The position numbers were made by a program, and so were the translations under genes. From the NCBI RefSeq assembly GCF_026616205.1, contig NZ_JANHGR010000001.1:930001-994000 (forward strand): a DNA stretch of 64,000 nt. Reading direction: 5' to 3'. This DNA is from Halolamina litorea (GTDB taxonomy: Archaea > Halobacteriota > Halobacteria > Halobacteriales > Haloferacaceae). The number at the start of each line of letters is the position of its first letter. The stretch's first letter is position 1. The notes beneath the pieces are model-generated. The model was not told the DNA's origin. It saw nothing but the letters and a program-made list of their open reading frames with translations, and did not search any database. This document shows, one piece after another, positions 4,310 through 35,406 of this stretch.

Positions 4310-7258
4310 ATGGACCACCGAAAGACGGCTCTCCTCCTGTTTACTGCACTTCTGGTGGTCTCATTCGTACCCGTGGCGCTGGGGGCGTCACCACCGTCGG
4401 CGTCGCTCTCGTACTCGCCGACGACGCCGAACCCGGACGAGACCGTTACGCTCGACGCGAGTGGATCGACGGACTCGGACGGCGACATCGTGGAGTACGA
4501 GTGGGACACCGACGGCGACGGCTACTACGGCGACTACGACGACGCTTCCGACGGACAGACGGCCAGGATATCGTTCGACGAGGGGGGGACGTACACCGTT
4601 GGCGTCCGGGTTTCGGACTCGGAGGGGAACACGGACACGGAACGAGTCCGAATCACGGTCGACAACCCGGCACCCGACCCGTCGTTCACGTTCAGCCCGT
4701 CGACGCCGAACCCGGATGACACGATTACGCTGGACGCGTCCGGTTCGTCGGATGCTGACGGGAGCATCGTCAAGTACGAGTGGGACACCGACGGCGACGG
4801 CTACTACGACGACTACGACGACGCTCCAAGCGGACAGACGACGCAGGTCTCGTTCGGAGAGGGCGGCACGTACACGGTCGGCCTCCGCGTCACCGACAAC
4901 GGCGGGAAGAGCCGCGAGATCACCAAGCGGATCACGGTAGACAATCCGGCACCCGAACCGTCGTTCACGTTCAGTCCGTCGACGCCGAACCCGGACGACA
5001 CGATCACCCTCGACGCGTCCGACTCGTCCGATTCCGACGGGAGAATCGTGGAGTACGAGTGGGATACCGACGGTGACGGCTACTACGACGACTACGACGA
5101 CGCCCCAAGCGGGCAAACCACCCAAGTGTCGTTCGGAGAAGGTGGGACCTACACGGTCGGTCTCCGCGTCACCGACAACGGCGGCAAGAGCCGAGAGATC
5201 ACGAAACGCATCACGGTAGACAATCCGGCACCCGAACCGTCGTTCACGTTCAGTCCGTCGACGCCGAACCCGGACGACACGATTACGCTGGACGCGTCCG
5301 GTTCGTCTGATTCCGATGGATCGATCGTGGAGTACGAGTGGGACACCGACGGCGACGGTTACTACGACGACTACGACGACGCCCCAAGCGGACAGACTAC
5401 CCAAGTGTCGTTCGGAGAGGGTGGAACCTACACCGTCGGTCTCCGCGTCACCGACAACGGCGGCAAGAGCCGAGAGATCACGAAACGCATCACCGTGGAG
5501 AACCCCCCGCCCGAGCCGGCGTTCACGTTCAGTCCGTCGACGCCGAACCCGGACGACACGATCACACTGGACGCATCGAGTTCGTCCGATCCCGACGGGA
5601 GTATCGTGGAGTACGAGTGGGACACCGACGGCGACGGGAATTACGGCGATTACGACGACGCGGCCGACGGGCAGACGACGCAGGTCTCCTTCGACGAGGA
5701 GGGGACCTACACGGTGGGCCTCCGCGTCACCGACAACGGCGACGTCGAGCGGACCACCACCCGACAGATCACCGTCGAGAACCCAGCGCCGAATGCGTCG
5801 TTCGTCGTCGCGGAATCCGACTCCGAGGGACTATCCGTGGCGCTCGACGCTGCGTCGTCAAGTGATCCGGACGGATCGATTGTTGAGTACGACTGGTACG
5901 TCGAGGGAGCGCGTGAAGCGACTGGCTCGTCGGTCACGCTCGACTTCCCGCGCAAGGGCGCCTACGAAGTGCGCCTCACGGTGACCGACAACGGTGGCAA
6001 AACCGCATCCGTCACTCGGACGGTCGGCGTGAGTGAGCCACCGACGCCACGGATCACGTTCGAACCCGGCCAGACAGTCGGGACCGGCCAAGAGATCCGT
6101 CTCTCGGGCACGGAGTCGTCCGACCCCGACGGTCGGGTCTCGGCCTACCGGTGGGCAATCGGTGGCGGGGACACTGCTCAGGGCTCGGAGATCACCCGAA
6201 GCTTCCGGCGGCCGGGCGAGTACGACGTGACGCTGACGGTGCGCGACGAGACGGGACAGGAGCGGAGCGCGACACGAACCGTCGTCGTTCGGGAACCACC
6301 CACGGCCTCCTGGCAGTTCTCCCCTGATGACCCGATCGACGAGGAGACGATCACGTTCACGGCCAGCTCGGAGGACGACATCGAGACGTTCCGGTGGGAC
6401 TTCGACGGCGACGGCGAGTTCGACGCCACGGGGCCGGAGGTCGAACACGCGTACAGCGACGGGGAGACCAAGGACGTGACACTCGTCGCCGTCGATCAGT
6501 TCGGAGTGGCCACGCGGGTCGAGAAACAAGTCCCCGTCGAGGAGGTGAAACCCAGCGCCTCGTTCGAGTGGCGGCCGGACAAACCCCGGAGCGGGCAGGA
6601 CGTTGTCCTCACGGGGTCGACCGATGCCGACGACGCCACGATCGAGTGGGACTTCGACAACGACGGGGAGTTCGACGCCTCGGGCGAACGGGTGACGACG
6701 GCGTTCGACGAGAACGGGAAGCAGGTCGTCGTCATGCGGGTCACGGGGCCCAACGGAGACACGGCCGAAACCAGTCGGGTCGTCACGATCCAACAGAGCG
6801 CCTCCTTCGAACTCACCAGCGAACAACGGACCATCACCACCGGCGACGAGGCGGTCATCCGGTTTACCGCCTCGAACGAGCTTGCTGACGTGCCGATCAG
6901 GGTCCGGCTCGACATCGACCTCCCCGGTTCCGGCGCGGGGATATCGGGAGTCAGCGGCGCGGAGTTAGCGAGTAGCAGCGCCACGACGTTCGTCGACATC
7001 GAGCCGGGCGGTGAAGACTCGTTGAACCTCCGAGTCCAGTTCAACAGCCCTGGCGAGTACAACCTCACCGGTACGGCCGTCTACTACATCGGGACCGGGG
7101 AGAACGAATCCCGTCGAACGACGACCATCGGTCCCGTTCGAGTAACGGCCGTCAGCCCGGACGCAGCCGTCCAGACGGGCGTTGTGAGTCCTGGGTTCGG
7201 GGTCGGAACCGGTCTGATCGCGCTTCTGCTGTCCCTCTTGCTGCTCAGACGGGACTGA
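4310..7258 (+). CDS. Large PKD-domain surface protein with PGF-CTERM anchor
   Basis: This 982-residue exported protein has a signal peptide (about residues 1-27), then nine consecutive PKD domains (each about 80-93 residues, ending in the YxVxLxVTDNxG strand). Repeats 1-5 carry an Asp-rich loop (DTDGDGYYDDYDD) that looks able to bind calcium. After them is a beta-rich domain (about 790-945) that is shared with the divergent gene at 3403-4209. The C-terminus, SPGFGVGTGLIALLLSLLLLRRD, is a PGF-CTERM signal: the PGF motif, a membrane helix and terminal basic residues, which in haloarchaea is cut by archaeosortase A and linked to lipid. PKD arrays usually serve adhesion or extend a protein from the cell surface; the ligand is unknown. 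Confidence 0.9.
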   Translation: MDHRKTALLLFTALLVVSFVPVALGASPPSASLSYSPTTPNPDETVTLDASGSTDSDGDIVEYEWDTDGDGYYGDYDDASDGQTARISFDEGGTYTVGVRVSDSEGNTDTERVRITVDNPAPDPSFTFSPSTPNPDDTITLDASGSSDADGSIVKYEWDTDGDGYYDDYDDAPSGQTTQVSFGEGGTYTVGLRVTDNGGKSREITKRITVDNPAPEPSFTFSPSTPNPDDTITLDASDSSDSDGRIVEYEWDTDGDGYYDDYDDAPSGQTTQVSFGEGGTYTVGLRVTDNGGKSREITKRITVDNPAPEPSFTFSPSTPNPDDTITLDASGSSDSDGSIVEYEWDTDGDGYYDDYDDAPSGQTTQVSFGEGGTYTVGLRVTDNGGKSREITKRITVENPPPEPAFTFSPSTPNPDDTITLDASSSSDPDGSIVEYEWDTDGDGNYGDYDDAADGQTTQVSFDEEGTYTVGLRVTDNGDVERTTTRQITVENPAPNASFVVAESDSEGLSVALDAASSSDPDGSIVEYDWYVEGAREATGSSVTLDFPRKGAYEVRLTVTDNGGKTASVTRTVGVSEPPTPRITFEPGQTVGTGQEIRLSGTESSDPDGRVSAYRWAIGGGDTAQGSEITRSFRRPGEYDVTLTVRDETGQERSATRTVVVREPPTASWQFSPDDPIDEETITFTASSEDDIETFRWDFDGDGEFDATGPEVEHAYSDGETKDVTLVAVDQFGVATRVEKQVPVEEVKPSASFEWRPDKPRSGQDVVLTGSTDADDATIEWDFDNDGEFDASGERVTTAFDENGKQVVVMRVTGPNGDTAETSRVVTIQQSASFELTSEQRTITTGDEAVIRFTASNELADVPIRVRLDIDLPGSGAGISGVSGAELASSSATTFVDIEPGGEDSLNLRVQFNSPGEYNLTGTAVYYIGTGENESRRTTTIGPVRVTAVSPDAAVQTGVVSPGFGVGTGLIALLLSLLLLRRD
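4667..5782 (+). repeat. Four tandem 279-bp repeats encoding PKD domains 2-5
   Basis: Units begin at about 4667, 4946, 5225 and 5504 and each encodes 93 residues. Units 2-4 are nearly identical even at many third codon positions, whereas domain 1 and domains 6-9 are strongly diverged. This points to recent duplication or ongoing recombination within the gene, so copy number may vary between strains. Confidence 0.85.
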
Positions 7259-16489: not shown

Positions 16490-16592
16490 AGTCCCGTGGT
16501 GTAGTGGCCAATCATGAGGGCCTTTGGACCTGCTCGGCGTCGCCGGGCGGGGGAGACAGCCTTCGACGGCGGTTCGAATCCGCCCGGGACTA
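16490..16592 (+). tRNA. tRNA-Gln (UUG) with intron
   Basis: The 7-base acceptor stem AGTCCCG pairs with CGGGACT, the T-arm is GGCGGTTCGAATCCGCC, and the anticodon arm AGGGC-CTTTGGA-GCCTT gives anticodon TTG (16524-16526) once about 30 bases (16528-16557) are removed. The insertion site is the canonical position 37/38, where archaeal splicing endonuclease cuts. The discriminator base is A and CCA is not encoded. An upstream TATA-like GGTAATACTC lies at about 16451-16460. Introns in tRNA-Gln are known in haloarchaea. Confidence 0.93.
16528..16557 (+). other. tRNA-Gln intron (30 bases)
   Basis: The segment begins ACCTGCTCGG and ends GGGGGAGAC, sits between positions 37 and 38 of the tRNA and can fold with the flanking exons into a bulge-helix-bulge. 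The exact ends may shift by one base because an A borders both sides. Confidence 0.75.
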
Positions 16593-28099: not shown

Positions 28100-29052
28100 C
28101 CGGCCAGAGAGGGTCTCCCCGCGTCCGGGGTCGGGAGGTCGTCGCCGCCAAGACTCGCAGTCGAGTTCTTCGTCGTTGCGGTACTGTTCGTGCTGGTGGT
28201 GTTGGCGGTAGAGTTGGTACCGGTAGCGGAGTCGAGTGTGCTGTTCACGCTGCTCGTGTCGTTCGTGGTCGCCGAACCGTTGGTCGTCCCGGTCGCGTTC
28301 CGCGTCGTGGAGTCGTTCGTGGTCGCCGAGCCGTTCGTCCCCGTCGGCGTCGAACCGTTCGGGGCGGCGGTCGTGGCGTTCGCGGCCGTCGTGTTCGTCG
28401 CTGTGGTGTTCGTCGCTGTGGTGTTCGTCGCTGTGGTGTTCGTCGCTGTGGTGTTCGTCGCTGTGGTGTTCGTTGCCCTCGGCGGAGTCGTCGTAGGCGT
28501 GACTTCAGTCGTTGGACCCGCCGTCGCCGTCCTGGTTCCGCCGCCCGTCCTCGTCGGTGTGCCGGCTTCGCCGCCCAGCTTGGCAACGTCGACCGTAACG
28601 GGGGCCCGGCCCACGAACTGCCGGTCGTACGTCCACCAGCCGCTGATGACCAGTTCGTACTCGCCGGGCTCGTCGACGAGGCCGGCGATCCGCCGCTCGC
28701 TGACCTCCAGCGTGCACTCGCGGTCGCACGTGACGTTCGACGCGGCGACGGGGACGAGCCGGTCGGCGCCCGCGACGGAGAGGGTGAACTCCGAGACGCT
28801 CACCTCCTCCGGGGCGCGGACGCCGAGCTCGACGATCACCGTCCCGCTGGCGTTCCTCGCGACCGTTCCGGGGGTCAGTTCCACGGCCTCGACTTCGACG
28901 GTCAGGTCGCTCGCGGCGTCGAACGACGATTCGGCAGCCTCCTCGTCGTGGAGGGCGCCCAGCGTCGGGGTGAGCCCGCTCGCACTGACGACCATCCACA
29001 CGAGCAGGCCCAGGGCGACGAACGCGAGTGCACGGTGGCCGAGATCGGTCAT
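27943..29052 (-). CDS. Thr/Asn-rich secreted surface protein
   Basis: A 369-residue frame with an N-terminal membrane or signal helix (residues about 8-26), a beta-sandwich domain of about 140 residues with one Cys pair (VTCDRECTLEV), and a long Thr/Asn/Ser tail (about 195-310) holding many NTT sequons, probably heavily glycosylated. It is the last gene of the regulator-signal peptidase operon, overlapping the peptidase gene by an ATGA. The final 50 residues are encoded antisense to the DUF35 gene; the natural end may lie earlier if a frameshift has occurred. Confidence 0.6.
   Translation of the reverse strand: MTDLGHRALAFVALGLLVWMVVSASGLTPTLGALHDEEAAESSFDAASDLTVEVEAVELTPGTVARNASGTVIVELGVRAPEEVSVSEFTLSVAGADRLVPVAASNVTCDRECTLEVSERRIAGLVDEPGEYELVISGWWTYDRQFVGRAPVTVDVAKLGGEAGTPTRTGGGTRTATAGPTTEVTPTTTPPRATNTTATNTTATNTTATNTTATNTTATNTTAANATTAAPNGSTPTGTNGSATTNDSTTRNATGTTNGSATTNDTSSVNSTLDSATGTNSTANTTSTNSTATTKNSTASLGGDDLPTPDAGRPSLAGQTGRRTSTSSPVVSLAPTSGSTSSPISTAPVGASTTIPVTRAGPKSTTAVS
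28391..28465 (-). repeat. Five perfect tandem copies of a 15-bp unit
   Basis: The unit GTGTTCGTCGCTGTG (plus strand) is repeated five times without change and a sixth partial copy follows. On the coding strand it encodes repeats of TNTTA with an N-glycosylation sequon each. Being a multiple of three, slippage would change tail length without breaking the frame. Confidence 0.9.
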
Positions 29053-29636
29053 GGATCCCCCTCCCCGGCGTCATCCGCCACAGCGTGACCGGCGCCGTCG
29101 CCGCCGTCGCCGCCGTCGGTGCCGTCGTCGCGCGCCGCGGTGACCAGCCCCCACAGCTCCGAGGCGGCGAGGAGGAACCCGGGGACGGCGACGAAGGTGA
29201 GGACGCCGGTGTCGCTGTTCGCGAAGGAGAACAGCCAGCCGACCTCCGGGATGCTGAACCGGACCGTGCCGATCAGGGCGTCCGCCGGCACCAAGCGGCC
29301 GTCCGGCTCCTCGTTCGCGTCACCCTTCGTCCGGAAGTACCGGTCGCCGTCCCGATCGACCACCTCGACCACGCGGTGTGTGGTCCGCTTCTGGTCCCCC
29401 GCGACGCGATCGAACGCGATCACGTCGTCCGTCGCGACCCGCTCCGGTGGCGTGTCCGCGACGATGACCACGTCGCCGGTCCCGATACTGGGCTCCATGC
29501 TCCCCGAGAGTACCACGTAGCTGTGGTCCGCGCCGACCACCGCCGGGAACGCCACGATTGCGGTGACGAGCAGCGCGACGACGAGAACGACGGTGCCCGT
29601 GATGTTGAGCGCGCGGCGGAGTCGCCCCCCCGTCAT
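29049..29636 (-). CDS. sipW: Type I signal peptidase (ER/SipW type)
   Basis: The 195-residue enzyme is an S26B-type signal peptidase: N-terminal membrane helix (about 12-35), the Ser nucleophile in VLSGSMEPSI (Ser46), His87 in THRVVEV replacing the bacterial Lys, and Asp106/Asp112 in KGDANEEPD. A second membrane helix follows near residue 150. This is the class that processes TasA-like proteins in Bacillus. It overlaps both neighbours by four bases and lies across the intergenic region from three genes with SipW-type signal peptides, which are the likely substrates. Confidence 0.88.
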   Translation of the reverse strand: MTGGRLRRALNITGTVVLVVALLVTAIVAFPAVVGADHSYVVLSGSMEPSIGTGDVVIVADTPPERVATDDVIAFDRVAGDQKRTTHRVVEVVDRDGDRYFRTKGDANEEPDGRLVPADALIGTVRFSIPEVGWLFSFANSDTGVLTFVAVPGFLLAASELWGLVTAARDDGTDGGDGGDGAGHAVADDAGEGDP

Positions 29637-30202
29637 GTCGGTGGCTCCTCGCCCGCGCCGAGGCGATGGTTCGTGTCGTAGTGACAGTGGTACAGCGCCG
29701 AACCGAGGAACAGGAGCGTGATGATGCCCGCGAGCCAGAGACCGGGGATCCACGTCAGCGGAACCACCCCCAACCCCGCCGAGGCGACCGACATCGCGGA
29801 CAGCGAGCCGAGGCCGGCGTAGTACTTGCTCCACGGGATCTCCTCGTGAGGGACGACTTCGAGGTACACCTCGAGCTCGGCGGCCTCCTCGGTCAGGACG
29901 ACCGTCCCGCGGTTCGCGTCGAACTCCACGATCCCCTCGGTGTCGAGTTTCGGCAGGTGGAGCTGCCGGAGGGACGTGTAGACGCGCATGCGTTGGTCGT
30001 ACGTTACGTCGACTGGCGGCACGCCGTTCTCCCACGCCGCCAGCTGCTCGGAGAGCTCGCGTAGCTCGACGGTCCGGTCGACTTGCAGCAGGTAGTGAAG
30101 GACGTGTCGCCGTCGACGTGCGCTGAGCACGTCGAAAGCCACCCGTTGGGTGATGTCCGGTTCGCTCTCTACGGGCTCCCGGGTCGCTTTCGCGGTACTC
30201 AC
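29633..30202 (-). CDS. DUF7344-type winged-helix regulator with membrane helices
   Basis: The protein has an N-terminal winged helix (VAFDVLSARRRRHVLHYLLQ to EGIVEFDANRGTVVLT) followed by two closely spaced membrane helices (LSAMSVASAGLGVV and WIPGLWLAGIITLLFLG). The arrangement is that of the haloarchaeal DUF7344 family. As first gene of the operon with signal peptidase and surface protein it is the probable local regulator. I choose the GTG at 30202 (189 aa); a longer frame from the ATG at 30376 adds 58 residues rich in Lys/Asn that do not look halophilic. Confidence 0.7.
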   Translation of the reverse strand: MSTAKATREPVESEPDITQRVAFDVLSARRRRHVLHYLLQVDRTVELRELSEQLAAWENGVPPVDVTYDQRMRVYTSLRQLHLPKLDTEGIVEFDANRGTVVLTEEAAELEVYLEVVPHEEIPWSKYYAGLGSLSAMSVASAGLGVVPLTWIPGLWLAGIITLLFLGSALYHCHYDTNHRLGAGEEPPT

Positions 30203-30580: not shown

Positions 30581-30590
30581 CATATATACT
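30581..30590 (+). promoter_or_regulatory. TATA box of the SipW-substrate operon
   Basis: CATATATACT in G+C-rich DNA is a clear TATA box. It predicts transcription from about 30610 and a leader of roughly 65 bases, with GAGGT at 30658-30662 as the ribosome-binding site for the gene at 30677. Confidence 0.6.
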
Positions 30591-30676: not shown

Positions 30677-32047
30677 ATGTCCGACGACAACAGCAAGTTC
30701 GACCTGACGCGACGCAAAGTCCTCGGCGGCCTCGGCGGCATCGGCGCCGGCGCCGCGCTCGGTGGCACCGGCACGATGGCGTTCCTGAACGACACGGAGG
30801 AGACCTCCGGCGTGATGACCGCCGGGGAGCTCGACCTCATCGTGGAGTACTACTCGTACTGGAGCCAGGGAAGCGGCGGTGACTACGTCTCCGGCGAGAT
30901 CGACGGGGACGCGGTGACCGGCGAACTCAGCGACGTCAAGCCCGGCGACAGCGGGCTGGTCGCGCTCTGCCCGCGTATCGAGACCAACCCCGCGTACCTG
31001 TGGCTGTGCGGCGAACTCACCGCGAACAACGAGAACGGGATCACGGAGCCCGAGAGCGAGGTCGACTCGACGGGCGGCGACGGCAACGGTGAGCTCGCCC
31101 AGAACGTGGATGTGACGCTCAAGTACTGTACCCTCGACGACGATATCGGCGACGACGGCGGCTTCAACGCGGACGACGTCGAGAGTTCGACCGACATCTG
31201 GTCGGGGACGCTCGCCGAACTCTTCGACGCCATCCAGTACGGCGTCCCGCTTGACGGCGAGGGGACCACCCCGGACAACGGCGACGGCTTCTTCGAGCCG
31301 GGTGCCCAGGCCCACTACCCGGGTACGGGTGACAACGGCGAGGGGCCCTGCCTCTGTCTCGACTGGGAGGTCCCCTACGAAGTCGGGAACATCATCCAGT
31401 CCGACAGCCTGAGTTTCGACCTCCAGCTCTACGCTCAGCAGTCCCGGCACAACGAGGGCACGGACAACCCGTGCGCCAGTGTCACGACCGAGGCCGGCGA
31501 CGGGTTCGCGAAGGTCGCGGAGAGCTTCAACGGCAACGAAACGATCACCGGCGGCGCCCGCGCCCGCTACGGGAACAACGGTTCCTCCGGCGCGTGGGAG
31601 CTAGCCGTCGGCGACGAACCCGGCGTATCCGGCGAGTTCGCGGAGGAGAACTACGTGTGGACGAGCGGCCAAACCGTCGACTGGTCGGTCTCCTACGACG
31701 AGAGCAGTGACGAACTCTCGTTCACCTTCGACGGGACCACCATCAGCGACACGCTCGACGACCCGCAGCCGGACGGTCGCATGGCCATCCAGGGGAAGGC
31801 CGACGAGGCGACTGTCGAGGCGTCCATCGACAGTCTGTCGATCGGCGGCACCTCGATCTCGCTCAACGGTCCGAACGGGGGTTCGGTGACGAACGACGGT
31901 GAGGGTCGGCAGACCCGATACCTCCTCGTCAACACGGCTCTCGACGGGTCGACGGACTTCGAACTCAGCGGCGAGGCGACCGTGACCCTCCAGACCGACT
32001 ACGCTGGCGGCAACGAGGGCGTCGCATTCGACGTCGTGTTCGAGTAG
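30677..32047 (+). CDS. TasA/CalY-like protein 1 with SipW-type Tat signal and C-terminal anchor-W-like domain
   Basis: A 456-residue exported protein. The N-terminus combines a twin-arginine start (LTRRKVLGGLGGIGAGAAL) with the SipW-type end GGTGTMAFLNDTEE, where cleavage is expected before the mature beta-sandwich. The mature N-terminal domain has the family frame (TAGELDL, DVKPGDSG, EVGNIIQSDSLSFDLQLYAQQSRHN). Unlike its two paralogues it continues with a second domain of about 190 residues (from VTTEAGDGFAKVAE) that resembles the choice-of-anchor W domain. By analogy it may form extracellular fibres or coat. First gene of the rightward operon. Confidence 0.8.
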   Translation: MSDDNSKFDLTRRKVLGGLGGIGAGAALGGTGTMAFLNDTEETSGVMTAGELDLIVEYYSYWSQGSGGDYVSGEIDGDAVTGELSDVKPGDSGLVALCPRIETNPAYLWLCGELTANNENGITEPESEVDSTGGDGNGELAQNVDVTLKYCTLDDDIGDDGGFNADDVESSTDIWSGTLAELFDAIQYGVPLDGEGTTPDNGDGFFEPGAQAHYPGTGDNGEGPCLCLDWEVPYEVGNIIQSDSLSFDLQLYAQQSRHNEGTDNPCASVTTEAGDGFAKVAESFNGNETITGGARARYGNNGSSGAWELAVGDEPGVSGEFAEENYVWTSGQTVDWSVSYDESSDELSFTFDGTTISDTLDDPQPDGRMAIQGKADEATVEASIDSLSIGGTSISLNGPNGGSVTNDGEGRQTRYLLVNTALDGSTDFELSGEATVTLQTDYAGGNEGVAFDVVFE

Positions 32048-32089
32048 GACCGGCTGCCCGGCCTTCGCGGGTGCCGGCCTTCCGGGCCG

Positions 32090-32131
32090 CGGCGGTTCGA
32101 CTCCGCCGGTGGGTCTTCCCCTTTGGGGGAG
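32090..32131 (+). promoter_or_regulatory. Structured leader of the second SipW-substrate gene
   Basis: Hairpin 1 (32090-32108) is CGGCGG-TTCGACT-CCGCCG, the shape and sequence of a tRNA T-arm. Hairpin 2 (32115-32131) is CTTCCCC-TTT-GGGGGAG; its 3' arm contains the probable ribosome-binding site GGGGAGTGA, eight to nine bases before the ATG at 32140. Folding would hide the site. Nearly the same leader precedes the third gene (33149-33190). Confidence 0.55.
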
Positions 32132-32139
32132 TGACGAAC

Positions 32140-33093
32140 ATGGACGACAAACTCGATCTAACCCGACGCAAAGTCCTCGGCGGTCTCGGCGGCATCGGCG
32201 CCGGCGCCGCCCTCGGCGGTACGGGGACGATGGCGTTCCTGAACGACGCGGAGACCACGTCGGCCGGGGTGACCGCGGGCGAACTGGACATCCAACTCGA
32301 CTGGCGCACGATGCACAACGGCGAGGAACTCTCCCACCAGGAGTCGCCGGTCGACACGAACAGTCAGAACCAGCCGATCCTGACCCTCGACGACGTCAAA
32401 CCGGGCGACGACGGCTGCATCGTCATCAGTATCCACAACGACACGAACCCCGCGTGGATCTGGCACCAGATGCGGTTGTCCGATAGGGACGACCACGGGC
32501 TGACCGACCCGGAGGCATCGACGGACAGCACCGGCGGCGAAGGGGAGGGCGAACTGCAGGACCACTTGGAGGTGCGTGCGTTCTACGACGACGACGATGA
32601 CTGCGAGTGGAACCCCGACGAGGAGTGCAAGCTGACGTCGTGGCGGAAACTCACCGAGTACCTCAGCATAGAGACGTTCACCGGGGACGGGATCCTGCTC
32701 GACGGGCTCCGTGGGACGACGGTCTACAACAGGCAGGAGGCGATAGACGGCGTTCCGGGGAAGAACATCAATCTGTCCCCGTTTTTCCCCACCCCGGGAG
32801 GGGCGGACGACGAGTTCGAACGCTGGTACGACACCACGTTCTCGTCGAGCTACAGCCAGAGTCTCCTCGCGGACCAGACCGGGACCCAGTACATCACCTA
32901 CCAGTGGCGACTCCCCGAAGAGGTCGGGAACGTTGTCCAGGGCGACTCCGTCGACATCACCATCGAGTTCCACGCCCAGCAGGCCCGCCACAACGGCTTC
33001 CCGGAGAACCCGTTCGTCGGCGGCGACCCCGCCTTCTCAGTTGACCTCGCCCCCGGCGTCGATCCAGGTGGTACCGATCACTTCACGGGATAA
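32140..33093 (+). CDS. TasA/CalY-like protein 2 with SipW-type Tat signal
   Basis: A 317-residue paralogue of the preceding protein. The signal peptide MDDKLDLTRRKVLGGLGGIG and GGTGTMAFLNDAETT is nearly identical to that of the first, followed by TAGELDIQL and, at the end, QGDSVDITIEFHAQQARHNG. Mature sequence in between is quite diverged, with four Cys (two as CIVIS and CEWNPDEEC). It lacks the extra C-terminal domain. The ATG at 32140 is fixed by identity with the third gene and by the conserved leader. Confidence 0.8.
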   Translation: MDDKLDLTRRKVLGGLGGIGAGAALGGTGTMAFLNDAETTSAGVTAGELDIQLDWRTMHNGEELSHQESPVDTNSQNQPILTLDDVKPGDDGCIVISIHNDTNPAWIWHQMRLSDRDDHGLTDPEASTDSTGGEGEGELQDHLEVRAFYDDDDDCEWNPDEECKLTSWRKLTEYLSIETFTGDGILLDGLRGTTVYNRQEAIDGVPGKNINLSPFFPTPGGADDEFERWYDTTFSSSYSQSLLADQTGTQYITYQWRLPEEVGNVVQGDSVDITIEFHAQQARHNGFPENPFVGGDPAFSVDLAPGVDPGGTDHFTG

Positions 33094-33148
33094 TCCCGGT
33101 ATGCGGCCACCCAGGCCGCCCTGGGCCGTCCCACGTCCGGTGACTGCA

Positions 33149-33190
33149 CGGCGGTTCGACTCCGCCGGTGGGAGTTCCCCTTTCGGGGAG
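33149..33190 (+). promoter_or_regulatory. Structured leader of the third SipW-substrate gene
   Basis: Same arrangement as 32090-32131: T-arm-like hairpin CGGCGG-TTCGACT-CCGCCG (33149-33167) and a second hairpin TTCCCC-TTTC-GGGGAG (33175-33190) that includes the GGGGAGTGA ribosome-binding site. Loop and stem differ slightly from the first copy while pairing is kept, which supports selection on structure. Confidence 0.55.
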
Positions 33191-33198
33191 TGACGAAC

Positions 33199-34326
33199 AT
33201 GGACGACAAACTCGAACTGACCCGACGCAAGGCCCTGACGGGGCTCGGCGGCATCGGCGCCGGCGCCGCCCTCGGTGGCACGGGGACGATGGCGTTCCTG
33301 AACGACACCGAAACGAGCGCCGGCAACACCGTCACCGCCGGCGAACTGGACCTCAAGATCGATTGGGAGGAGCACTACAACGGCAGCATGATCGAGGACC
33401 AGGCGCTGACGGACAACCCCGGCCCGGTCTTCGACCTCGGCGACGTCAAGCCCGGCGACAGCGGCGAGGCGACGATCAGCCTCCACGTGTTCGACAACCC
33501 CGCGTGGGTCCACATGGCAGGGGAACTCACGAAGAACGCCGAGATGGGCGTCAACGAGCCCGAAAGCCACGCGGCGGGCGAGGACGACACGATGGAGGGC
33601 GGCGGCGACGACATGAGCGGCGAACTCGCCGACGAGATCCTCGTCGACGTCTGGTACGACGGCTCCGAGGCGGACGCGGACGGTGAGGGCGGCAACAACG
33701 TCTACGAGTCCGAGGAGGTCCCGATCGCGAGCGGGACCCTCCGGGACGTGATGGCCGAACTCGAGGATGGACGGCTTCTCAGCAACCAAGCCCCGGCTGC
33801 TACCGACGTGGGAACCGCCAGCAACGGCGGCGAGGCGTGTCTCACCGGCGACGAGTGGAAGATCGACGACACCCCTGTCGTCGGCGACACCACCCCGAAC
33901 GGCGACATCGAGATCACGGCCGTCGAGGAGGAGGCCGGCGAGGTCGTCGGCGTCGAGTGGGAGAGCCAGCGCGAGATCTGTCTCGTGGCGGTGAAGGGCG
34001 GCCCCTCGACGACGACCTACGAGTACGACTGTGCAACCTCCGGCGGCGTCGACTACGCACCCGAGAACGCGGGCAACGACAACCGCACGTACTACGAGAT
34101 CAGCAACGTGCAGTTCTACTACTGTGAGGGCGAGGACGGGAACGGTGGCGGCGACAACGGCGACGACTGCTGGCCGAACTCCACGACCCAGTACATCGGG
34201 TTCTCGTGGGAGCTCCCCTTCGAAGTCGGCAACGAGATCCAGAGCGACGAACTCCAGTTCGACCTGGAGTTCCACGCCCAGCAGTGCCGACACAACGACG
34301 ACCCGCGGAACCCGTACGCTGACTGA
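33199..34326 (+). CDS. TasA/CalY-like protein 3 with SipW-type Tat signal
   Basis: A 375-residue paralogue, start MDDKLELTRRKALTGLGGIG, signal end GGTGTMAFLNDTET. The mature protein begins TAGELDLKIDWEEHYNG and ends QSDELQFDLEFHAQQCRHND, the same frame as its neighbours. It contains a Cys-bearing central insert (about residues 200-310) not seen in the second protein. It is the last gene of the operon. Such proteins in Bacillus (TasA, CalY) and in some archaea form extracellular fibres; that role here is inferred. Confidence 0.8.
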   Translation: MDDKLELTRRKALTGLGGIGAGAALGGTGTMAFLNDTETSAGNTVTAGELDLKIDWEEHYNGSMIEDQALTDNPGPVFDLGDVKPGDSGEATISLHVFDNPAWVHMAGELTKNAEMGVNEPESHAAGEDDTMEGGGDDMSGELADEILVDVWYDGSEADADGEGGNNVYESEEVPIASGTLRDVMAELEDGRLLSNQAPAATDVGTASNGGEACLTGDEWKIDDTPVVGDTTPNGDIEITAVEEEAGEVVGVEWESQREICLVAVKGGPSTTTYEYDCATSGGVDYAPENAGNDNRTYYEISNVQFYYCEGEDGNGGGDNGDDCWPNSTTQYIGFSWELPFEVGNEIQSDELQFDLEFHAQQCRHNDDPRNPYAD

Positions 34327-34389: not shown

Positions 34390-35406
34390 CTACTCCTCGT
34401 CCTCGTCCGCTGCTTCCGTTTCTACCGCCTCCCCCTCCTCGCTCGGGTCGTACTCCCGGATCACCGAGAAGTCCTCTGGCAGGTCGCCGTCGAGCAGGTA
34501 GTCGAGCAGCGCGTCGGCGCGCTCGACGTGGGGGAGCAGCTTCGCGCGGTCGAAGACGAGCAGTTCGGCGCCCGCGGCGCGGGCCAGCTCCTCGCCCTTC
34601 GAGACGGGCGTCATCTCGGTTTCGCGGCCCCAGACGATGGTCGTCGGCACGTCGAGGTCGGCGAGCGTGCCGCCGAGGTCGAGTTCGCTGTCGAGGTCGC
34701 CCGCGAGGAACGCGGCGGGGGCGAAGCGGGCGTTCTCCTGGTGGGCGGTCCGCCACTCGTAGTCGGCCCATTCGGGCTCGGCGCCGCTGGGGTCGGCGTA
34801 GCCGTGATCGGCGTTGAAGTACTCGATGGCCGGCTCGGAGGTGACGAGGTTGAACAGCGCCTCGCCCACCAGCGGCGACCGGATCAGTTCCCGGACGAAC
34901 GTGCCGCCGCCCGGCCCGGTCGTCGTCGTCGGGCAGATCAGGACGAACCGCGAGACAGGGACGGTCTTCGCGGCGGCGGCAGTGTAGGCGGCGGTGAGCG
35001 AGGAGGCCATCACCGCGGGCCCCTCGTCGTCCCCGAACTCGCCGATGAACGACTCGACGAACGCCTCGTACAGCGCCGCGGAGTACCGAACCGGCGGCCG
35101 GTCCGAGCGGCCGTAGCCCGGCAGGTCCGGAGCGATCACGTGGTACTCCTCGGAGAGGGCGTCGAACACGCCGCGCCACTCGCCGGATGAGGCGGCGGCG
35201 TTGAGGCCGTGGAGCAGGACCAGATCGGGGTCGTCGGGGTCGCCGGCCTCGGTGTAGGCGACGTTCATCCCGCGCCAGCGGTAGGTGCGCTGCATACCGT
35301 CGAGGGCGGGCGGGAGGTCGCCCGCGTTCCGCGTGAGGAGGGCGTTCGTGGCCGCGGTGGCGCCGATACCGAGCGTCGCGTAACTCAGGGCGCGTCGGAG
35401 CTTCAT
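34390..35406 (-). CDS. Alpha/beta hydrolase with N-terminal signal or anchor
   Basis: The 338-residue protein has a hydrophobic N-terminus (SYATLGIGATAATNALL), the oxyanion segment VLLHGLNAAASSGEW, the strand APDLPGYGRSDRP and late IVWGRETEMTPVSKG with the catalytic Asp/Glu region and HVERADALLDYL with the His. The nucleophile elbow reads VMASSLTAA instead of the usual GxSxG; Ser in ASSLT is the probable nucleophile. Lipase, esterase or epoxide hydrolase activity is possible. The tail is Glu-rich. Confidence 0.78.
   Translation of the reverse strand: MKLRRALSYATLGIGATAATNALLTRNAGDLPPALDGMQRTYRWRGMNVAYTEAGDPDDPDLVLLHGLNAAASSGEWRGVFDALSEEYHVIAPDLPGYGRSDRPPVRYSAALYEAFVESFIGEFGDDEGPAVMASSLTAAYTAAAAKTVPVSRFVLICPTTTTGPGGGTFVRELIRSPLVGEALFNLVTSEPAIEYFNADHGYADPSGAEPEWADYEWRTAHQENARFAPAAFLAGDLDSELDLGGTLADLDVPTTIVWGRETEMTPVSKGEELARAAGAELLVFDRAKLLPHVERADALLDYLLDGDLPEDFSVIREYDPSEEGEAVETEAADEDEE

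Follow-up and report, generated by a model that had tools for sequence, protein, structure and literature searches.

The closest described counterparts of the element reported here are the t-elements of haloarchaea. In Haloferax volcanii the leader of 5S rRNA is a substrate of tRNase Z and is cut (PMC3296008), and t-elements on either side of a crRNA serve to release it in vivo via RNase P and tRNase Z (PMC4326828); for the 5S t-element itself these papers cite Hoelzle (2008, 2012). As far as could be found, t-elements are proven in Haloferax before 5S rRNA only. Further Haloferax t-elements were reportedly searched for by Hoelzle in 2012, and the examples tested are said not to have been cleaved in vitro. 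Like the mRNA element described below, the 5S t-element, as read in relatives of H. volcanii, has a 5-bp acceptor, a GG soon after the 5' strand and a T-arm with a UUCGANU loop, and its RNA runs about 2-3 nt past the acceptor before mature 5S begins. In contrast, the mRNA elements precede protein genes in operons, often several per genome, and are followed by a hairpin bearing the Shine-Dalgarno (SD) sequence; their acceptor is nearly fixed as CCCAC/GTGGG whereas that of 5S leaders varies, and their cleavage is proposed by analogy.

tRNAs or tRNA-like structures between genes also mark transcript cut sites in mitochondrial tRNA punctuation and in the t-elements of plant mitochondria, from which the haloarchaeal element differs in being archaeal, in having no anticodon arm and in that its processing is putative. 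RNase P and tRNase Z also recognise mascRNA-type tRNA-like ends such as that of MALAT1, which have an acceptor, a T-arm and a reduced D-arm; in that case the transcript is a eukaryotic nuclear lncRNA, and a small RNA is produced along with a stable 3' end. The Escherichia coli thrS operator mimics an anticodon arm and is bound by the product of its own gene. It shares with the haloarchaeal element tRNA mimicry in an mRNA leader near the ribosome-binding site, whereas the latter mimics the acceptor/T elbow and precedes genes unrelated to tRNA.

The window, the whole stretch of DNA that was analysed, covers 64 kb of the Halolamina litorea genome and contains three tandem genes for exported proteins of the SipW-dependent type (Table 1), which bear the SipW-dependent signal TIGR04088 and N-termini resembling camelysin/TasA. 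A divergent gene adjoining the cluster encodes a SipW-like S26 peptidase, which is probably the processing peptidase of these exported proteins. Tandem SipW/TasA-like proteins such as these probably form surface filaments. Both the leader and the signal-peptide coding region are highly alike between the tandem copies. A preliminary description had reported near-identical two-hairpin leaders before the genes starting at 32140 and 33199, and these are indeed present: the T-arm CGGCGG-TTCGACT-CCGCCG occupies 32090-32108 and 33149-33167, and the 3' arm of the second hairpin holds a likely SD sequence (GGGGGAG and GGGGAG, respectively) 8-9 nt before each ATG. Its statement that the first gene of the operon lacks this leader also holds, since both hairpins are absent before 30677 and no T-arm lies within 160 nt upstream of that start.

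Table 1. Coordinates of the SipW-type locus and its leader elements, as positions in the window.
Feature	Position	Strand	Basis and remarks
SipW-like signal peptidase gene (S26), divergent	29049..29640	-	PF10502 E 6.1e-5 for 29100-29630; ORF call, start approximate
TATA-box-like sequence, first gene	30581..30590	+	Read from sequence; operon promoter probably here
First gene, SipW-type signal peptide and choice-of-anchor W domain	30677..32047	+	NCBIfam TIGR04088 and NF041928 above cut-off
tRNA-like element copy 1, acceptor degenerate	32075..32117	+	T-stem 32091-32095/32103-32107; TTCGACT loop 32096-32102; R1 38.8 bits, E 1.7e-6
Second hairpin, copy 1	32115..32131	+	32115-32121 pairs 32125-32131; 3' arm GGGGGAG = likely Shine-Dalgarno; folding
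Second gene, SipW-dependent-type exported protein, camelysin/TasA-like N-terminus	32140..33093	+	PF12389 E 3.6e-6; TIGR04088 above cut-off
tRNA-like element copy 2, canonical	33127..33176	+	R1 54.8 bits, E 4e-10; family alignment A1
Second hairpin, copy 2	33175..33190	+	33175-33180 pairs 33185-33190; 3' arm GGGGAG; folding
Third gene, SipW-dependent-type exported protein	33199..34326	+	TIGR04088 above cut-off; PF12389 at cut-off

The earlier account of the element was correct as to its hairpins and incomplete in overlooking an acceptor strand, CCCAC, and a GG that follows it. The acceptor of copy 2 is formed by CCCAC (33130-33134) and GTGGG (33168-33172), the GG lies at 33139-33140, and the T-stem (33150-33154/33162-33166, extended by C33149-G33167) closes the T-loop TTCGACT at 33155-33161. 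Copy 1 keeps the T-arm and has a mispaired acceptor; at the same place the relative L012 still has CCCAC. Judged from its sequence, the element as a whole has the build of a minimal tRNA, with an acceptor stem, a D-loop-like GG and a T-arm (TTCGANT), followed by the hairpin with the likely ribosome-binding site. In tRNA terms the GG after CCCAC would correspond to the D-loop guanines that contact the T-loop, and the acceptor and T stems would stack coaxially as a helix of 11-13 bp. The single-sequence folding energy of the leaders is unremarkable (z -0.3 to -1.5), so folding of one sequence proves nothing and comparison has to carry the argument.

The 5' half of the element was examined independently in 148 haloarchaeal matches picked by their 3' half alone, against mononucleotide shuffles (n=200). 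CCCAC occurs within 80 nt upstream in 119 of the 148 (shuffled 28.6±4.7, maximum 39 in 200), and in 113 of these 119 a GG follows 1-5 nt after it, mostly 2 or 3 nt (shuffled 9.6). The linker past the GG ranges from a few to about 70 nt, frequently with an extra hairpin inside it. In the T-arm loop TTCGA is kept, with variation mainly in the last two positions.

Comparison of copies supports pairing of both stems. In alignment A1, which comprises 39 short-linker copies, 93.5% of cells pair and 6 of 13 pairs show double changes, a result that none of 500 shuffles equals; because the rows were chosen by acceptor pairing and the shuffle keeps relatedness, this covariation supports the structure and does not prove it. 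By the pair counts of A1, its rows being preselected for acceptor pairing, the elements have an acceptor stem and a T-arm with the T-loop consensus UUCRANY. Compensated stem changes include GGCGG/CCGCC to GACGG/CCGTC and CCCAC/GTGGG to CCCGC/GCGGG, among others. A third copy in the H. litorea genome, outside A1, has the acceptor CACGC/GCGTG with pairing intact and the GG in place. A gene family in Halorubrum carries the variant CCCGG/CCGGG with the loop TTCGCGA, as read by eye, some members pairing incompletely; a strict search had scored this family as lacking the element. Before another SipW-type gene, at L005:1501-1519 (G000:C1:1968687), lies a degenerate relative with the loop TGCGACG, where CTCTA/TAGAG could form an acceptor.

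The same plan recurs in the 5S leader of H. litorea, which reads CCGAG-cct-GG-..-CGCGG-TTCGATT-CCGCG-A-CTCGG-cg-5S and differs in its acceptor sequence; the D-loop-like GG has a fixed place in both mRNA elements and 5S leaders. The covariance model R1, built from mRNA elements alone, recovers the 5S leaders of other haloarchaea, the best three (L047, L200 and L195) at E 3e-7 to 1e-5. The 5S leader in L202 (genome G016) has its T-loop altered to ATCATTC and keeps the acceptor and the GG.

None of this amounts to a tRNA gene. ARAGORN finds no tRNA, that is no full cloverleaf, at the loci, and it also misses an intron-containing tRNA gene at window positions 16490-16592 (+), probably tRNA-Gln(UUG), which the Rfam model finds. 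Between 29000 and 36000 Rfam gives no tRNA match at E≤5 and no described cis-regulatory family at the leaders, its one sub-threshold match (E 4.5) lying at 34872, away from them. The T-arm 19-mer CGGCGGTTCGACTCCGCCG occurs exactly in no tRNA of the genome, and the CCCAC/GTGGG acceptor in 0 of the 26 own-genome tRNAs read, a count outside which stand 16 other Rfam tRNA matches, bar that at 16490. A tRNA fragment or pseudogene was considered as an origin and rejected, given the lack of any tRNA call in the loci and of an identical tRNA arm in the genome.

The exact 19-mer has three copies in the 3.0-Mb genome of H. litorea, all directly before SipW-type genes, and none in a reversed control of the same genome. 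The third copy lies 386 kb away, which points to more than local duplication. With at most one mismatch the 19-mer is present in 6 of 7 genomes of the genus (H. litorea included), and its core recurs in half of the family's genomes (85 of 170), the tabulated controls giving no match. Across the class, R1 matches 112 of 391 genomes, in 38 of 86 genera, at E≤1e-6; a short calibration makes its E-values approximate, and stricter filters drop weak copies. At E≤1e-3 the figure rises to 222 of 391, which probably includes 5S leaders, so the stricter count is used. In a phylum sample of 295 genomes drawn evenly from a larger group, 27 match at E≤1e-4, all 27 of them in the window's own order. The preliminary description had proposed such a search of related haloarchaeal genomes and named lack of conservation as grounds for refutation; the outcome is the opposite, the element being conserved.

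The same architecture is seen in prophage-like regions of Lactobacillaceae (L080, L129, L167, L180, L190 and L192), in the form CCCACTCTGGTGAC..CGGTTCGATTCCG..GGTGGG. Two such elements on the minus strand, at L080:3803-3850 and 5151-5198, each lie between a stop codon and a gene start about 25-35 nt ahead. R1, trained on archaea, detects the Lactobacillaceae elements with E down to 8e-8, and those in L080 and L167 have no Rfam match.

In tandem SipW/TasA-type clusters the haloarchaeal elements occupy the gap that separates the stop codon of one gene from the gene after it, and the first genes of the clusters are mostly without one. A same-strand ORF ends within 220 nt before 145 of 155 elements; at least 111 of the 155 precede a SipW-type signal sequence, and several others precede different exported-looking proteins. 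Placement was compared among SipW-type genes in the window and in fetched public loci, which were fetched for holding an element and are not phylogenetically independent. A T-arm lies within 160 nt upstream of 106 of these genes and is lacking from 71. The former are preceded by a same-strand ORF in 98 of 106 cases and the latter in 35 of 71 (Fisher 8e-11, the loci being non-independent). SipW-type genes without a T-arm are mostly first genes, or follow a stop codon too closely for an element to fit, or have the variant with CCCGG. The start codon usually lies 21-28 nt, about 25 nt, past GTGGG.

All 86 distinct leaders examined fold the second hairpin, which starts 0-4 nt after GTGGG and carries GGGGA or a similar sequence in its 3' arm, shortly before the start codon. 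Covariation in it is weak overall because most arms are plain CCCC/GGGG: swapping arms between leaders changes the folding energy from -9.0 to -8.3 kcal/mol, and a few divergent copies show pairs that vary together, such as TTACCACC/GGTGGTAG. The hairpin may do no more than stabilise the 5' end, or it may truly hold translation back.

We propose that the element is an intercistronic processing signal, probably cut by tRNase Z and perhaps also by RNase P, that leaves the SD hairpin at a new 5' end. A t-element in the mRNA would punctuate the operon for these exported SipW/TasA-type proteins. On the long transcript the element would be recognised by tRNase Z, possibly with RNase P acting on the 5' side, and the cut would fall 1-3 nt past GTGGG; for copy 2, the spacing of 5S leaders predicts a processed 5' end at about 33173-33175. 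Every gene downstream would then be carried on a separate mRNA with the SD-containing hairpin almost at its 5' end, and the upstream message would be left with a tRNA-like 3' end. Differing stability and translation of the pieces could set the ratios of the subunits. The preliminary description had offered either a post-transcriptional switch or a processing signal for a tRNA enzyme. Its remark that it knew of no described archaeal element of this kind does not hold as worded, because Haloferax is known to have tRNA-like t-elements. The second of its two alternatives is well supported, the element being built like the 5S t-element, a tRNase Z substrate; nothing positive speaks for a ligand-type switch; processing is preferred over a ligand or protein switch mainly because of the likeness to the 5S leader and the published cleavage of the latter. 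Points against processing include the Haloferax examples reportedly left uncut in vitro and copy 1 in the window, which has no good acceptor. CCCAC/GTGGG also varies far less than a tRNA-processing enzyme of general specificity would call for (the acceptors of 5S leaders do vary), and a further sequence-specific reader or gene conversion may lie behind this.

This uniformity of the acceptor across the class, together with the near-fixed 25 nt or so to the start codon and the universal SD hairpin, would also suit translational control, in which a specific protein bound to the tRNA-like fold (aminoacyl-tRNA synthetase, tRNA-modifying enzyme or dedicated regulator) changes access to the SD sequence with no need of cleavage. 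We consider this unlikely, however, since the elements are tied to intercistronic places and not to first genes of the same family, which a regulator of these proteins would not require, and since the CCCAC/GTGGG acceptor does not occur among the own-genome tRNAs read.

The high similarity of leader and signal-peptide coding region in tandem copies could instead mean that the leader is a relic with no RNA function, duplicated with the gene and homogenised by gene conversion. Compensated changes in the stems, the regular spacing of the GG and the spread over 38 genera make this very improbable, as do first genes of the same family without the leader and the third own copy, which pairs with a different acceptor sequence. 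More improbable still is a tRNA-derived attachment or recombination site that shuffles surface-protein genes at the DNA level: the repeats flank variable surface-protein genes and haloviruses use tRNA-like attP sites (PMC8707807), but the compact acceptor and GG rule are unlike a tRNA 3' fragment, orientation and start-codon spacing are constant, and a scan of viral contigs gave four matches, read as Lactobacillaceae prophage-type elements and tRNA genes, none of them haloviral. A viral origin likewise found no support in that scan, and the published haloviral tRNA-like sequences are attP sites.

More broadly, and tentatively, haloarchaea and, separately, some Lactobacillaceae prophages may use anticodon-less mini-tRNAs as dedicated punctuation between protein genes of one operon, at which tRNA-processing enzymes would cleave the transcript and so fix the proportions of the proteins, in haloarchaea those of an extracellular filament system. 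If processing is right, protein operons in prokaryotes would show tRNA punctuation across a whole class, and the position of the cut would follow a built-in rule. Haloarchaeal transcripts have abundant processing sites, and a published search found no sequence motif unifying the internal ones (PMC8303175), against which the element would stand out as a precise intergenic signal. It would also help to explain how cells make tandem SipW/TasA-like proteins in fixed ratios.

First genes of such clusters can have conserved leaders of another kind. In Halorubrum and Halobellus (L098, L143, L163, L175, L183 and L185), first-gene leaders share a different conserved sequence, approximately CGTAACTATCCCCCCTTCCGCTAAGGGAGGGG, which is perhaps a promoter plus a hairpin.
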